Part shown: one piece after another, positions 47,505 to 62,707 of the stretch
How positions within the stretch are numbered: the first letter of the stretch is position 1
How the letters are laid out: every line of letters starts with the position of its first letter
The notes under the pieces: generated by a model
Database searches by the model: none
Seen by the model: only the letters and a program-made list of their open reading frames with translations
What the model was told of the DNA's origin: nothing
Position numbers and translations under genes: made by a program
Source of the DNA: Candidatus Woesearchaeota archaeon
GTDB lineage: Archaea; Nanobdellota; Nanobdellia; Woesearchaeales; JAFGUC01
Assembly: GCA_016938695.1 (NCBI GenBank)
Contig: JAFGUC010000006.1
Span: forward strand, 1-64,000
Length of the DNA: 64,000 bases
Reading direction: 5' to 3'

Positions 47505-48065
47505 ATGAGTCTTATTGAGAGACTAAAAGATATTAGAATTAGAGTTTCGGATTTGGTGATTAATGACGCTCCGTTAAGTGTAGACCAAGCAGTCTTACGG
47601 TGTTTTGTTTCTGAAAAATTAGCTCGTGAAATGTTAAAGAAGTGTAATGCTCAAGAAATATTTGATTATTCTGATTGCGTTTTAGATGGTTTTTATTTGC
47701 AACGTGGTAGAAAGGGAATTGAAGTGATTGATGATTCGCACCATATAATTTGTCATGAGTATGATGGATTATTTATGGACGAATCAAATGTTTTTTTTTC
47801 GGAAGTGAAATCAACAAGTTTACATGGTTTTACTTATAAAATTCCCCGTGCATTACAATTTGCAGATATGTTTTTTTCAGATTCTGAGTTTTTAATATTT
47901 TATCCTTGTAATGGTTCAAGTAAATCTTATTGTGCACATGAAATTGAAAAAGAGTATCCTAAAATTTCAGTAATTGATTTGGGATATAAACAGAAAGATT
48001 TTGCAGTAGTTGTTAATGATATTTATTGGACAAATAAACGTATTCTAAAAAAACAACGGAATTAG
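47505..48065 (+). CDS. Hypothetical protein
   Basis: 186-aa ORF, no recognised family. Confidence 0.55.
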   Translation: MSLIERLKDIRIRVSDLVINDAPLSVDQAVLRCFVSEKLAREMLKKCNAQEIFDYSDCVLDGFYLQRGRKGIEVIDDSHHIICHEYDGLFMDESNVFFSEVKSTSLHGFTYKIPRALQFADMFFSDSEFLIFYPCNGSSKSYCAHEIEKEYPKISVIDLGYKQKDFAVVVNDIYWTNKRILKKQRN

Positions 48066-48220
48066 AGTTTCGCCTCTAACATTCGATATATGTTTCGCAA
48101 ATGCTCAAGCATATTTTAAGAATGCGAGGACCGGGAAACAGAACTTAGAGTTTCGCCTCTAACATTCGATATATGTTTCGCAAATGCTCAAGCATATTTT
48201 AAGAATGCGAGGACCGGGAA
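48062..48220. repeat. Direct repeat: 76-bp identical copies 48062-48137 and 48145-48220 (offset 83 bp), including 15 nt of the tRNA-Gly 3' end
   Basis: ttagagtttcgcctctaacattcgatatatgtttcgcaaatgctcaagcatattttaagaatgcgaggaccgggaa occurs twice; second copy runs into the intact tRNA. Confidence 0.95.
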
Positions 48221-57659: not shown

Positions 57660-60600
57660 TTGATGAGTGGTTTAGAAAGTATAGTGCTAGATGGTAGGTT
57701 CAGCTCGGATGCAAAAAAAGAAATAATTAGTGCACAAGAGATATCTAAGGAAATCAGTCTTCCGGTTGATGTTTTATCATATTTGAATCTTGAAAACTTA
57801 TTTTCTGATTTTGTCAAAGGAGCAAAGAAAAAATATTTAGCATTTGCAGGTTCTTCTTTAGCGTATTTATTATTAAAGTCGCAACGTAACTTTAATCACA
57901 CTTTGAGTAACTTTAGTCAGGATAGGCGAGTTGATATTTCTAAATATATTGTATTTTCTGTTGATGATTTAAAAAAATATTCGTCAGAGTCTTTGTTTGA
58001 TGAAGAAAAATATACTTCGCCAAGTTTTATTTTTGATAGAGAAAAGTTGAATGTTGGAAATTATTTGTTCCAGCTAATTGAATCTGATTTAAGTTCTATT
58101 CCAAGAATTGATTTTAAAGATTCTACTCTTGAGTTTAATGATTATGCTATTCGAAAAATTAGAAGTATTTCACATTATTCTGAATTTTTTAATAAGTATT
58201 CTGTTTTTTTGGAAAGTCAGAATGATTTTATTTTAGCATCACAACTTGATTTGATTCCTAAGTTGTTTTTAGATTATGAAAAAGTTTTTTCAGAGTTTAA
58301 AAAGAATGAATCAATAAAATATATGGATTCTGTATTACGAGCTCATGCAGTTTATAATGGACTAGTTCCGTCTAAGTTTTCAAGTGTATATCCTTTTTTA
58401 GAAAGAACCGGTCAAGAGATGCAGTTTGTTATTGATTTAGCTACTCAAGCAAAAATTGCGTCTGATGTTTTGTTGTCATATGATTTAAGTGAGGGAAAGA
58501 AACCATTTATCTATGTTACTAGTGATGGTCAATTTAAATCTTTTACAAGTGACTCTTCTTTGGCAGGTCAAACAGGTGAGAAAAAATTAGATACAATTTC
58601 AACACTTGTTGGTGCTTGGTGTGATAGTCTTACTAGAGTTTTTACTCATAAAAATGTTTATAGTCCATTTAATAGATTGGATGAAATGCTTAGATATTTT
58701 GGTATTTCTGATGAATTATCAACTAAGCTTTCTGAGAAATTTTCTTTAGAGATAATGAACCGTCAATTGACTGGAACAGGTACTGTTGATGTTCCAAATT
58801 CTTTTGTAGATGCAACTGGTGTTGTTTTTGATAATATGAATTTGTTGACTGTTGATGAATACCGAGGAAGTAAATTTGCGGAATCGTTGAAATATTTAAT
58901 GGAAAACTTTCTTGGTAAAACTTTAAATGATTGTAGTTATAGATTGTTTTCATCTAATACTAGTCATCTGGCAGATAATATTCGAAAACAAATTAATGTC
59001 TTTGATACTGAAAAAAACGAAGATATTGTTTCTTTTAAGAGAATTGGAAATAATGTTGAATCAATGTTATCTTCTGTTTCTAGATTGTTTCCTGGAGAGA
59101 AATATGAAATTTTTCAAGGAGGAAATTCTGGAGTATGTACTGTGTTTTCGATTGGAAATTTATTCCAGATATATGTTCCATATCAATCAAAAATTGAGGT
59201 TCTAGATTCTTTTGAATCTGTACGTGAGATTGATCCTTTCTCTTCGACAGTTGTTTTATCTCAGATTTATGCGCATGAAACAGTTCATTTGGCGCAGATT
59301 AATACTCCATTGATGTGGAAGAATATTTTAAATTCTATATTGGGTTTTGTTGCAACTAATGCCAAAAAAGATATTGAAGAAAATAAACTTGATGTAGTTT
59401 CGTCTTTTTCACGAGAAAGTTCTATGTTTCATAAGTATGATGAAACTCAAAGGACAAGAGTAAATTTTTATGAAACATTAATTGATGAATATTCTGCATT
59501 GTGTATTGGTAAAGGAGATCTTGCTGATAATTTAAGAAAAATTGGTCTTTACAATGCGTTTACTGAGGTTAATGTTCAATATGGTTGTGTTGTTAGAAAT
59601 AAGAGTGGGCAGAAAATTGTTTCTTTTGTTCAACCTGGAATTATGTTAAAGCGTAGAGATTATGAAAATATTATTGCAGAAGAGCATCTGGTTGATTGGC
59701 AGAAAAAAACACAAGAATGGTCTGAACAGGGTTATGATTTAGAAGAAAAAATACAAGAATATATTTCTTCTCAAACCTCTGTGGCTGATGATAGTTTTTC
59801 AAAATTACGAAGTGAATTACAACAGGCAAAAGCTTCTAATGATGTTGAGGCAATTGAAAAAATTAGACAGAAGATTGCAATACATAAGAAGCAAAGAAAT
59901 GAATTGTACAGACAAAGTTGGATTGAAACTGTTGAAAAATCTCAGTATGCAAAATCTTTAAAAGAACTACAAGACGCTGTTGATTCTTTAAATTCATCGA
60001 GAATTGATTCTGCAATTAGAAATATTGAAGATTTGGGCTTAATAGTTGACCGTGGAACATCTTTTTTTGAGCGTGATGGTTCTTTTAGAACTGAGCATTA
60101 CACTTCAATAAAATTAGATGATACGCCAAATACTAGGATTGCTAGAGCGAACATTAAGAGTTTGAAGACTGCATTACATAGGCATGATGTTGTTACTTTA
60201 GATAGACTTGTGAAATATTTCAAAAATAGACAAGACGAATTTGGTGCAATGATTGAAACTCAGGCTGAGTCTTTTAGTTTGTATTTAGTGAAAAAAATGA
60301 TTGATGAATATTCTCCAGATACTGAGTTTACAGATGAGAGTCGTGAATTCTATAAATCAGAAATTGAGAAATCAATGCTTTCTGCGGGAAAACGTGCGTT
60401 GTTATATCAAGAATTAATTAGCGATTCAAAATTGGACTTTGCTCAGATAAGTTCTAGACTTTCAATGAAAGGACTAATTTATTCTAGAGTTTTGAATTCA
60501 GAAAATACAAGAAAATCTACAGAAAATTTGTTTAAACTGGGTTATTCGCCAATAAATCCAACTGAAGCGTATGACAGTATTTCTGGTTTACTTGAGAGAA

Positions 60601-60812
60601 TTAAGAATTATAATCTTGAAAATCCTAATTCAAAAATTTTATTCAAGGATTGTTTAAGGCCTATGAATCAAGCTAGAATGCAAATTGACTTGAAATATCG
60701 TGCGCACATTCCTTTGTTTACAGAATTATTGGATAAATTTGGTCCAGAGGATGCGTTTTCTATGATTGTGAATTCAGAAACAATGGATGACATTAGAAGA
60801 TATTTGAAGTGA
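57660..60812 (+). CDS. Large protein with HExxH metalloprotease-like motif, unknown family
   Basis: 1050-aa ORF; HETVH at 59274-59288; downstream YETLIDEYSALC; C-terminal coiled coils. TTG at 57660 or ATG at 57663 start. Confidence 0.8.
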   Translation: MMSGLESIVLDGRFSSDAKKEIISAQEISKEISLPVDVLSYLNLENLFSDFVKGAKKKYLAFAGSSLAYLLLKSQRNFNHTLSNFSQDRRVDISKYIVFSVDDLKKYSSESLFDEEKYTSPSFIFDREKLNVGNYLFQLIESDLSSIPRIDFKDSTLEFNDYAIRKIRSISHYSEFFNKYSVFLESQNDFILASQLDLIPKLFLDYEKVFSEFKKNESIKYMDSVLRAHAVYNGLVPSKFSSVYPFLERTGQEMQFVIDLATQAKIASDVLLSYDLSEGKKPFIYVTSDGQFKSFTSDSSLAGQTGEKKLDTISTLVGAWCDSLTRVFTHKNVYSPFNRLDEMLRYFGISDELSTKLSEKFSLEIMNRQLTGTGTVDVPNSFVDATGVVFDNMNLLTVDEYRGSKFAESLKYLMENFLGKTLNDCSYRLFSSNTSHLADNIRKQINVFDTEKNEDIVSFKRIGNNVESMLSSVSRLFPGEKYEIFQGGNSGVCTVFSIGNLFQIYVPYQSKIEVLDSFESVREIDPFSSTVVLSQIYAHETVHLAQINTPLMWKNILNSILGFVATNAKKDIEENKLDVVSSFSRESSMFHKYDETQRTRVNFYETLIDEYSALCIGKGDLADNLRKIGLYNAFTEVNVQYGCVVRNKSGQKIVSFVQPGIMLKRRDYENIIAEEHLVDWQKKTQEWSEQGYDLEEKIQEYISSQTSVADDSFSKLRSELQQAKASNDVEAIEKIRQKIAIHKKQRNELYRQSWIETVEKSQYAKSLKELQDAVDSLNSSRIDSAIRNIEDLGLIVDRGTSFFERDGSFRTEHYTSIKLDDTPNTRIARANIKSLKTALHRHDVVTLDRLVKYFKNRQDEFGAMIETQAESFSLYLVKKMIDEYSPDTEFTDESREFYKSEIEKSMLSAGKRALLYQELISDSKLDFAQISSRLSMKGLIYSRVLNSENTRKSTENLFKLGYSPINPTEAYDSISGLLERIKNYNLENPNSKILFKDCLRPMNQARMQIDLKYRAHIPLFTELLDKFGPEDAFSMIVNSETMDDIRRYLK

Positions 60813-60822
60813 TTAGAAAAAA

Positions 60823-60930
60823 CCCTAACACAAATGTTCACGAGGAACACCTGTGCCAGGGAAAAAGAGGTGATTATAAAAAAACCCAACTCAAATGCAG
60901 ACGCACTTGAGCTAGGGAAAAAGAGGTGAT
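60823..60930 (+). ncRNA. Two tandem structured hairpin elements, each ending in AAAAAGAGGTGATT (anti-SD complement)
   Basis: Copy 1 (60823-60875): CCCT AA CACA AAT GTTC ACGAG GAAC ACC TGTG CC AGGG. Copy 2 (60885-60931): CCC AA CTCA AAT GC AGAC GC ACT TGAG CT AGGG. Same internal loops, different helix sequences. Confidence 0.6.
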
Positions 60931-61084
60931 TGAGTGTGATTTTTGTTATTTGTTACTACTACTTAGTGTATTACTCATATATAAACTTTTCGTTTTTAAT
61001 ACTATTGAATAGTAGTTACTTTTTATATGTATTTTTTGATGATTTTACCCTATATTTATAAATTTTTGGATGTTTTTTGATGCT

Positions 61085-61627
61085 ATGTTATGTAATGGCT
61101 GTAAAAAGGAGTATAAGGATGTTGTACGTGATCTAGCAAACAGGATATATTGTAAGCCTTGCTTTTTGCGGTTAATAGAGCGTAAGGTTAAAAAGGAATT
61201 ACGGGGAATAAATCATCAAAAAATTGCTTTATTAAAATCGGATTCTGCTTCTTTTTTTGTATTAAAGTCAATTTTAACGGTTCCTTATGTTGTAATTGAA
61301 AATTTAGATAATTATATTGTATATGATACTGTGATACTGCCTTTTACTTGTGAAGATGAAGATGAATTATTTTTAGATCAAATTTTTAGTGGAAAATTTC
61401 CTAGAAAACTTGGCAATTATACTTTGAAGAAAACAAATTTTTTGAAGCCTTTATTGAATGTTAGCCTAAGTGAATGTAAGACATATTGTGATTTAGTTGG
61501 AATTAAGGTTAAAGTTGATGATACATCTAGTAAAATATCTCGGATTTTTTTGGATAGAATGTCTGAAAAAAATAAATCGTTAAAACAGAGTCTTTCTAGA
61601 TTTGTTCAAAAATTCTCAAAGCTTTAA
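61085..61627 (+). CDS. Zinc-ribbon protein resembling Ncs2/CTU2-type tRNA thiolation factor (ORF track start 61070)
   Basis: MLCNGCKKEYKDVVRDLANRIYCKPCFLRLIERKVKKEL, then no recognisable PP-loop SGGKDS. TATA-like tttataaat about 26 nt before ATG 61085. Confidence 0.5.
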   Translation: MLCNGCKKEYKDVVRDLANRIYCKPCFLRLIERKVKKELRGINHQKIALLKSDSASFFVLKSILTVPYVVIENLDNYIVYDTVILPFTCEDEDELFLDQIFSGKFPRKLGNYTLKKTNFLKPLLNVSLSECKTYCDLVGIKVKVDDTSSKISRIFLDRMSEKNKSLKQSLSRFVQKFSKL

Positions 61628-62707
61628 TTATTCTAAAATTGATTTATTTTTCTCTAAAATTGGATGTTTTTGTAATATTAATGGAAGATACTTTGATTCT
61701 TTTAGACTAGGACCTAAGTATTCTAGATCTGAAATTCCAAATTTTCCAGCGAATAATGGTTTGAGTTTGTTTTCTTGATTGAGGTATTCTATTATTTTTT
61801 CTCTTCCTTGAAAGTATAAATGGTCTTTGATATATCCGCCTGGTTGAGATGTATCTTTTAATCCTCTTTTTACTCTTTTTGTAATGACGTACGCATTGTT
61901 CATTCCAAGATTATACTTTTCTTTGATCTCTTTAAACACTTTATAGAATGAGTTGTTGATTGCTGATTCTGCAGCGATGCAACGTGCACAAATAAATTTT
62001 AATCTTGTCTCGTTATTATTGTGATATAAATCTTCCATTACTGTTGCTAGTCCTTCTTCTGTTTCTAGGTAGCTTGGTGTTCCGATGTTTCCTAGAACTT
62101 TGTATTTTTGGTTATATCCATTGACACTTCGTAACACATGTGTTTCGATTTCATGACATAGTAATGTTTTAATCTCTTTAAATGAGAAATTTCTTGATTT
62201 AATGTTTATTTCTTTTTTGGTAGGATTTACAAAAAGGTTTGATGTTAGTCGTTTTTTAATAGTTACTTTCCAGCATAGATTGAATTCTTTTAAATGTTCT
62301 TGAAAGATTGTTTTTGTGATTTGTGGATCAATATTTCTGGTTTGTTTTTTTGATTTTCGTTTGTTGATTAAATCTCTTGCTTTATCAACTATTTCTTCAT
62401 TAGGTTTTCCGAAAATCATTTCTGGCTTTTCACCATTTTTTAGATTTTGTAGAAAATTTGTTTTGATTATTTGGTGATTTTGCAATTCAGAATATACTCT
62501 CTCTTTTGGTGATAGACGGCTTATTCTTTTTTTTAACTCTTCAAAATCAGTTTTTGGGCTTTTATATTTGTATTGGGGATTATATTCTTCTTTGTTTTTG
62601 TAATGCTTGAAAAAAATTTCTCTTTCTTTTGAATCGTTAACTGGAGTAATGAATGGAGTTAAATCTAGACTCTTGTTTAGTTCCTGAAATTTATTATCCC
62701 AGTGTAT
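61628..62707 (-). CDS. DUF1704 (QEGLA/MATCAP-like) putative metallopeptidase, with extended N-terminus
   Basis: FKEIKTLLCHEIETHVLRSVNGYN; LGTPSYLETEEGLA. The frame stays open upstream of the ORF-track start (62485) with NPQYKYKSPKTDFEELKKRISRLSPKERVYSEL. Confidence 0.78.
   Translation of the reverse strand: MHWDNKFQELNKSLDLTPFITPVNDSKEREIFFKHYKNKEEYNPQYKYKSPKTDFEELKKRISRLSPKERVYSELQNHQIIKTNFLQNLKNGEKPEMIFGKPNEEIVDKARDLINKRKSKKQTRNIDPQITKTIFQEHLKEFNLCWKVTIKKRLTSNLFVNPTKKEINIKSRNFSFKEIKTLLCHEIETHVLRSVNGYNQKYKVLGNIGTPSYLETEEGLATVMEDLYHNNNETRLKFICARCIAAESAINNSFYKVFKEIKEKYNLGMNNAYVITKRVKRGLKDTSQPGGYIKDHLYFQGREKIIEYLNQENKLKPLFAGKFGISDLEYLGPSLKESKYLPLILQKHPILEKNKSILE

Follow-up and report, generated by a model that had tools for sequence, protein, structure and literature searches.

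The tandem hairpin element at positions 60823–60930 of the window (the whole 64,000 nt stretch of Candidatus Woesearchaeota DNA that was analysed) is real: both copies are present where the preliminary description had placed them, with the compensatory P2 change between the copies that it had pointed out. Based on fold, promoter, and homologues, the element is predicted to be a small RNA (sRNA) gene of two units on the minus strand, running from about 60954 to 60817. Established here are the conservation of both structure and promoter, the gene's free-standing context, and a tail nearly identical to the 16S rRNA anti-SD. It is fairly probable that this is an anti-SD sRNA that masks AAAGAGGUG SDs and represses mainly membrane, pilin, and secreted proteins.

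The 18 nt repeated tail AGGGAAAAAGAGGTGATT, as described earlier, is present in two exact copies (0.08 expected at up to three mismatches), with none other in the window within three mismatches; the motif GARGTGATT occurs a third time at 60806–60814, at the end of the 1050-aa gene. Spacing between the tandem units is 56–61 nt. The element had been read on the plus strand, with internal loops AA/CC and no poly-U, and none of these three points holds. The plus-strand fold of the region has an energy of -29.2 kcal/mol (z -3.04), against -46.4 kcal/mol (z -6.77) for a slightly longer stretch on the minus strand. What appear as loops are A.C mismatches on the plus strand only; on the minus strand G.U pairs form there, giving two continuous hairpins of 14 and 17 bp with the unpaired AAUCACCUCUUUUU between them, and runs of seven and six T follow the hairpins. 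Because the continuous hairpins, the G.U pairs, and the U7 and U6 runs are all found there, the RNA is assigned to the minus strand.

Read in this direction, each unit has the order AAUCACCUCUUUUU, hairpin, U-run, downstream of an archaeal promoter. An operator-like palindrome, TACTATTGAATAGTA (61000–61014), with similar ones upstream of homologues, lies 5′ of this promoter, which combines a BRE-like CGAAAAG (60986–60992, minus strand) with the TATA box TTTATATA (60978–60985, minus strand); BRE and TATA sequences are likewise found 5′ of the homologues. From the TATA spacing and geometry of this promoter (60978–60992, minus strand), transcription is predicted to start near 60954, within a second TACTACT/AGTAGT motif (60952–60968) that has similar counterparts in many homologues, giving a predicted leader of 60932–60954. 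There follow, all on the minus strand, the first anti-SD tail, AAUCACCUCUUUUU (60918–60931), which is unpaired in the fold and copies the 16S end GAUCACCUCCUUUUU; hairpin 1, of 14 bp with a four-base loop (60885–60917), supported by the fold, by covariation, and by a match to the covariance model R2 at 60877–60931; a terminator-like U7 (60878–60884); the second anti-SD tail, again AAUCACCUCUUUUU (60862–60875); hairpin 2, of 17 bp (60823–60861; R2 match at 60816–60875); and a terminator-like U6 (60817–60822).

A covariance-model search of DPANN genomes, which the preliminary description had proposed as a check, recovered homologues throughout the order. The model R1, built from the two window copies alone, matched only these two copies in the organism's own genome, and matched 185 out of 353 genomes of the order at E≤0.1. 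With R2, built from 12 gap-free relatives in RNA orientation, 307 of the 353 genomes were matched at E≤1e-3, including 161 out of 180 of high quality, and 197 out of 220 genera. A phylum-wide draw gave matches in 271 out of 371 genomes at E≤1e-4, and these include many families that belong to other orders of the class. Genomes carry one to four R2 matches, mostly one or two and often in tandem; most relatives are single units, and the window locus has two. An exact-pattern scan of 84,980 species matched at least 112 stretches, in which the exact tail is fixed by the search pattern itself. The 80 titles listed comprise 76 archaea labelled Woesearchaeota, Nanoarchaeota, Pacearchaeota, or similar, and four contigs with a bacterial label; L108 and L121, without a promoter, are probably chance matches, and L125 and L131, with a promoter, are perhaps misbinned. 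Seven IMG/VR contigs (L181–L187) also carry the sRNA pattern and are either mislabelled archaeal contigs or viral copies.

That the element is a structured RNA with covariation in its DPANN relatives is likewise borne out. In an alignment of 12 sequences, 11 of the 15 stem pairs changed on both sides, and pairing is kept in 95.6 % of cells. With 117 sequences, 13 out of 15 pairs changed on both sides. Double-changed cells number 474 (shuffled mean 123), and the covariation score is 0.695 (at most 0.137 for slid versions). Fitting this larger alignment to the model biases it in the model's favour, but both kinds of control, shuffled and slid, still lie far below. Order-wide conservation together with covariation places the element far beyond chance. 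A protein-coding reading was rejected, as the stems covary without a reading frame, varying in length and bases, and there is no conserved start codon. No Rfam family matches at the gathering threshold, and in a lax Rfam search the best result for the window was only E 0.6 or worse; a search for DNA similarity in phages and plasmids gave nothing better than E 0.6. The literature searched, mostly open-access papers on archaeal and DPANN anti-SD sRNAs and structured RNAs, gives no description of the element.

Among the matches listed, a BRE/TATA promoter (CCGAAA..TTTAWATA) lies within 300 nt upstream in 107 out of 112 homologues, and in nearly half the TATA box ends 22–31 nt before AUCACCUC, which would put the 5′ end of the RNA at the tail or just ahead of it. 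Of 110 of these promoters, 76 come with a palindrome of the TACTACT-N4-AGTAGT type, compared with 9 in shuffled sequence. For the 89 loci with both neighbours, again among the matches listed, 52 have a divergent upstream and a convergent downstream gene, and in 60 the downstream gene is on the opposite strand, unlike the fixed same-strand downstream gene of a riboswitch or cis-leader. There is no constant partner gene beside the homologues. Recurrent neighbours, named by motif, are presumably a Lon-like S16 protease, a RIO1 kinase with DnaG primase, a PLD-type lipoprotein, ScpA, S24e, SMC, and a small PP-loop-like protein similar in kind to the one encoded at 61070 in the window. Since the neighbours vary and are mostly divergent or convergent, a free-standing sRNA gene is the simplest reading of the sequence data; the promoter (107/112 among the matches listed), the U-run, and the neighbours together describe a free-standing unit such as is expected of a trans-acting anti-SD sRNA. 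The element is not a 3′-UTR regulator of the 1050-aa gene, one of the roles suggested earlier, given its own promoter on the other strand, its convergence on that gene, and the position of homologues beside other genes. Relatives of the 1050-aa gene were absent from 60 genomes of the order, and the element is therefore not tied to that gene.

Several features of the surroundings were recorded. The 1050-aa protein (57660–60812, plus strand) is without a confident Pfam domain. The 185-aa gene (61070–61627, plus strand) lies divergent to the sRNA; it is similar to a small gene that recurs beside the sRNA at 14 other loci, and it has a weak match to the PP-loop family PF01171. Beyond it, the gene at 61628–62485 (minus strand) falls in the MATCAP family (PF08014, E 8.8e-40), which is named for a microtubule-associated tyrosine carboxypeptidase, a label unexpected in an archaeon. 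An 83 nt tandem duplication with a 97 % match is present at the tRNA-Gly/tRNA-Val genes (48055–48220). On contig C70 of the same genome (L419:7890–7955), a promoter with a similar palindrome is followed by CGAAAAGTTTATATA and a 141-aa ORF, which is possibly co-regulated by the same transcription factor as the sRNA. A second conserved RNA-like element, GCCCGUCACGAGAGUACC...GGGAGUUAGUGUUACGGGCUACA, is present at L023:1665–1745 and about 20 other loci (including L019, L022, L027, L037, L095, and L123), where it adjoins the sRNA, often in the RIO1/DnaG context; it folds at -29 kcal/mol, has ACA at its end, has no Rfam match, and is possibly a guide RNA of the H/ACA type.

The organism's own 16S rRNA ends in ...GGGAUCACCUCCUUUUUAUUU, in which AUCACCUCCUUUUU is the part equivalent to the tail. 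The sRNA tail AAUCACCUCUUUUU is this 3′ end minus one C, and the missing C is consistent (sRNA CACCUCUUU, 16S CACCUCCUU). At the loci found with R1, 22 out of 26 tails are ATCACCTCTTTTTCCC and the rest are AACACCTC with fewer T; variants among the relatives are AACACCUCUUUU. Like that of an anti-SD sRNA, the tail is exposed, being unpaired in the fold and complementary to SDs. Judged by its sequence, the tail is an anti-SD and not an SD, and because it copies the 16S 3′ end the pairing partners of the RNA would be mRNAs and not the ribosome. The link to SD/anti-SD pairing made in the preliminary description therefore stands, with the roles exchanged: the RNA carries the anti-SD, the 16S 3′-tail sequence, and the proposed ribosome-binding decoy is lost with the SD that it would have required.

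In the proposed mechanism, each unit consists of a single-stranded tail, AUCACCUCUUUUU, a hairpin of 13–17 bp, and a U-run. The tail would pair in trans with mRNA SDs of the form AAAAGAGGUGAU, i.e. (A)AAAGAGGUG(AU), hiding the SD from the 30S subunit so that translation is blocked, with repression falling mainly on membrane, pilin, and secreted proteins. The hairpin and U-tail would terminate the RNA, protect it, and perhaps bind an Sm-like protein; having units in tandem would add dose, and the level of the sRNA would be set by a transcription factor binding the palindrome. We infer each of these steps, from SD pairing and 30S competition to repression and palindrome-factor control, from sequence. 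It counts against this explanation that the standard archaeal terminator is of another kind than a hairpin with a U-run behind it.

Candidate targets support this mechanism to differing degrees. In the organism's own genome AAGAGGTGAT occurs five times (reversed control 0): two sites are in the sRNA complement, one is in coding sequence, and two are directly before start codons, as the SD of a type IV pilin-like gene (CTCAAAAGAGGTGATTATG, a 13 nt complement to the tail; leader CUCAAAAGAGGUGAUUAUG) and of a gene for a 74-aa membrane protein. When 464 kb of this genome are ranked by duplex energy, the pilin and the small membrane protein come out near the top, as do further membrane or secreted proteins. 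Across 288 genomes, the sRNA-type SD AAAAGAGGTGAT-N0-6-ATG is present in 155, some matches being the sRNA's own complement; the perfect 16S complement of the same length, AAAGGAGGTGAT-N0-6-ATG, is present in 26. Genes recurring behind sRNA-type SDs, named by motif, are what we take to be small membrane proteins, pilins, pilin-like proteins, MscS-like channels, and a 42-aa protein. An N-terminal membrane segment is encoded by 33 out of 51 genes behind sRNA-type SDs and 7 out of 23 behind 16S-type SDs (P=0.011), and in 464 kb of the organism's own genome by 7 out of 11 AAGAGGTG-led genes and 38 out of 141 other SD genes (P=0.016), an enrichment that in both comparisons is based on small numbers.

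Statistical support is strong for one family, a 78-aa membrane protein (alignment A5) present in 220 out of 269 genomes, in which AAAGAGGUG is kept before the start codon across dozens of families. This protein family was first noticed via its SD, by which 7 of the 90 members were found and 83 were not. The base before GAGG is A in 63 and G in none of the 90, compared with 34 A and 24 G in background start-proximal SDs (P=9e-10), and AAAGAGGTG is present in 42 out of 90 members compared with 4 out of 73 in the background. As a G would lengthen pairing with 16S rRNA, its absence speaks for the sRNA. The 78-aa gene is within 10 kb of the sRNA in 13 out of 53 genomes, about one being expected; this may simply be conserved gene order. 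Against the target reading, A-rich leaders are common in AT-rich genomes, and a few genomes without an R2-detected copy (G239 and G058) keep the same SD in this family. The complementarity behind both the family statistics and the membrane bias is partly common to 16S rRNA, and sRNA-type SDs could therefore be kept for ordinary initiation.

The same resemblance to 16S rRNA allows a different function, in which the RNA would mimic the 16S 3′ end and titrate a protein that binds the AUCACCUC tail of pre-16S rRNA, such as an initiation factor, Nob1, or a Dim2-kind KH protein; the signal that the promoter reads would in this way be linked to ribosome maturation or initiation. The near-identical tail, the tandem binding sites, which suit a sponge, and the frequent position of homologues beside S24e or RIO1 kinase, a ribosome-maturation factor, are in keeping with such a role; it is nevertheless unlikely, since one C is consistently missing (CACCUCUUU compared with CACCUCCUU), the SDs of candidate targets follow the sRNA version, and the RIO1 linkage is one of several contexts.

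The hairpins and U-runs of the minus strand, and the same-strand downstream gene of some homologues, could also belong to a terminator, or to an attenuator or leader of a neighbouring gene. Such a cis element is improbable with its own promoter directly upstream, mostly divergent upstream and convergent downstream genes, and no constant partner, and a terminator has no need of a fixed 14 nt tail. Very little weight is given to a repeat or mobile DNA element (REP/MITE, or attC-like site): tandem hairpin units with flanks in common would suit one, but the organism's own genome has one locus, with no scattered extra copies found in it, and genomes elsewhere have one to four matches in place of the many dispersed copies of a REP/MITE, promoter and gene order are conserved, and the stem sequence varies between species while pairing is kept. 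Equally hard to credit is the plus-strand RNA proposed earlier, presenting GAGGUGAU, which is complementary to 16S rRNA, as an SD decoy, given the weaker fold, the lack of a U-run after the hairpins on that strand, the A.C mismatches where the other strand pairs, and a conserved promoter that points the opposite way.

Extending the anti-SD sRNA reading, it is possible, though somewhat less likely than not, that an ancient class-wide archaeal sRNA runs an envelope regulon of pilins, secreted proteins, and small membrane proteins in uncultivated DPANN lineages, with SDs that evolved to match the sRNA and not 16S rRNA. If so, it would be an archaeal counterpart of the bacterial envelope-stress sRNAs. 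The sRNA is present in roughly 90 % of the good genomes of the order, offers a simple testable rule (the tail against AAAGAGGUG SDs), and opens a way to study surface control in archaea with small genomes that often depend on a host. Because the RNA imitates the ribosomal anti-SD, it can be tested directly whether mRNA, sRNA, and ribosome compete for one set of eight bases. Deeply conserved base-pairing sRNAs whose regulon can be defined are hardly known from archaea, and the literature searched describes none in DPANN archaea.

By sequence the sRNA is a member of none of LhrC, NmsR, the csRNAs, or sRNA162; in function, its closest analogues would be the bacterial anti-SD sRNAs LhrC, NmsR, and csRNA and, in archaea, sRNA162. 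The csRNAs of Streptococcus reportedly form a family of small RNAs that resemble one another, share a regulator, and base-pair with SD regions through unpaired C/U-rich stretches; unlike the present element they are bacterial, CiaR-controlled, and of other architecture. In Methanosarcina mazei, sRNA162 is a trans-acting archaeal sRNA in which a single-stranded linker masks the ribosome binding site; it comes from a methanogen, has one main target, and is unrelated in sequence (PMC3510493), and unlike the present element it is without a conserved anti-SD tail plus terminator-like hairpin. The sibling sRNAs NmsRA and NmsRB of Neisseria mask the SD of several mRNAs by means of two UC-rich anti-SD regions, which are single-stranded or lie in a loop, but they are bacterial, have three stem-loops, target TCA-cycle enzymes, and are restricted to one group (PMC5362039). 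LhrC of Listeria is a multicopy sRNA, induced by cell envelope stress, whose redundant CU-rich motifs bind surface-protein mRNA and hinder translation (PMC4132741). No Rfam link connects the element with LhrC, which is bacterial, has motifs also in a stem-loop and the terminator, and is not a near-copy of the 16S tail, whereas the element is found only in Nanoarchaeota-type genomes, apart from the four bacteria-labelled contigs among the 80 titles listed.
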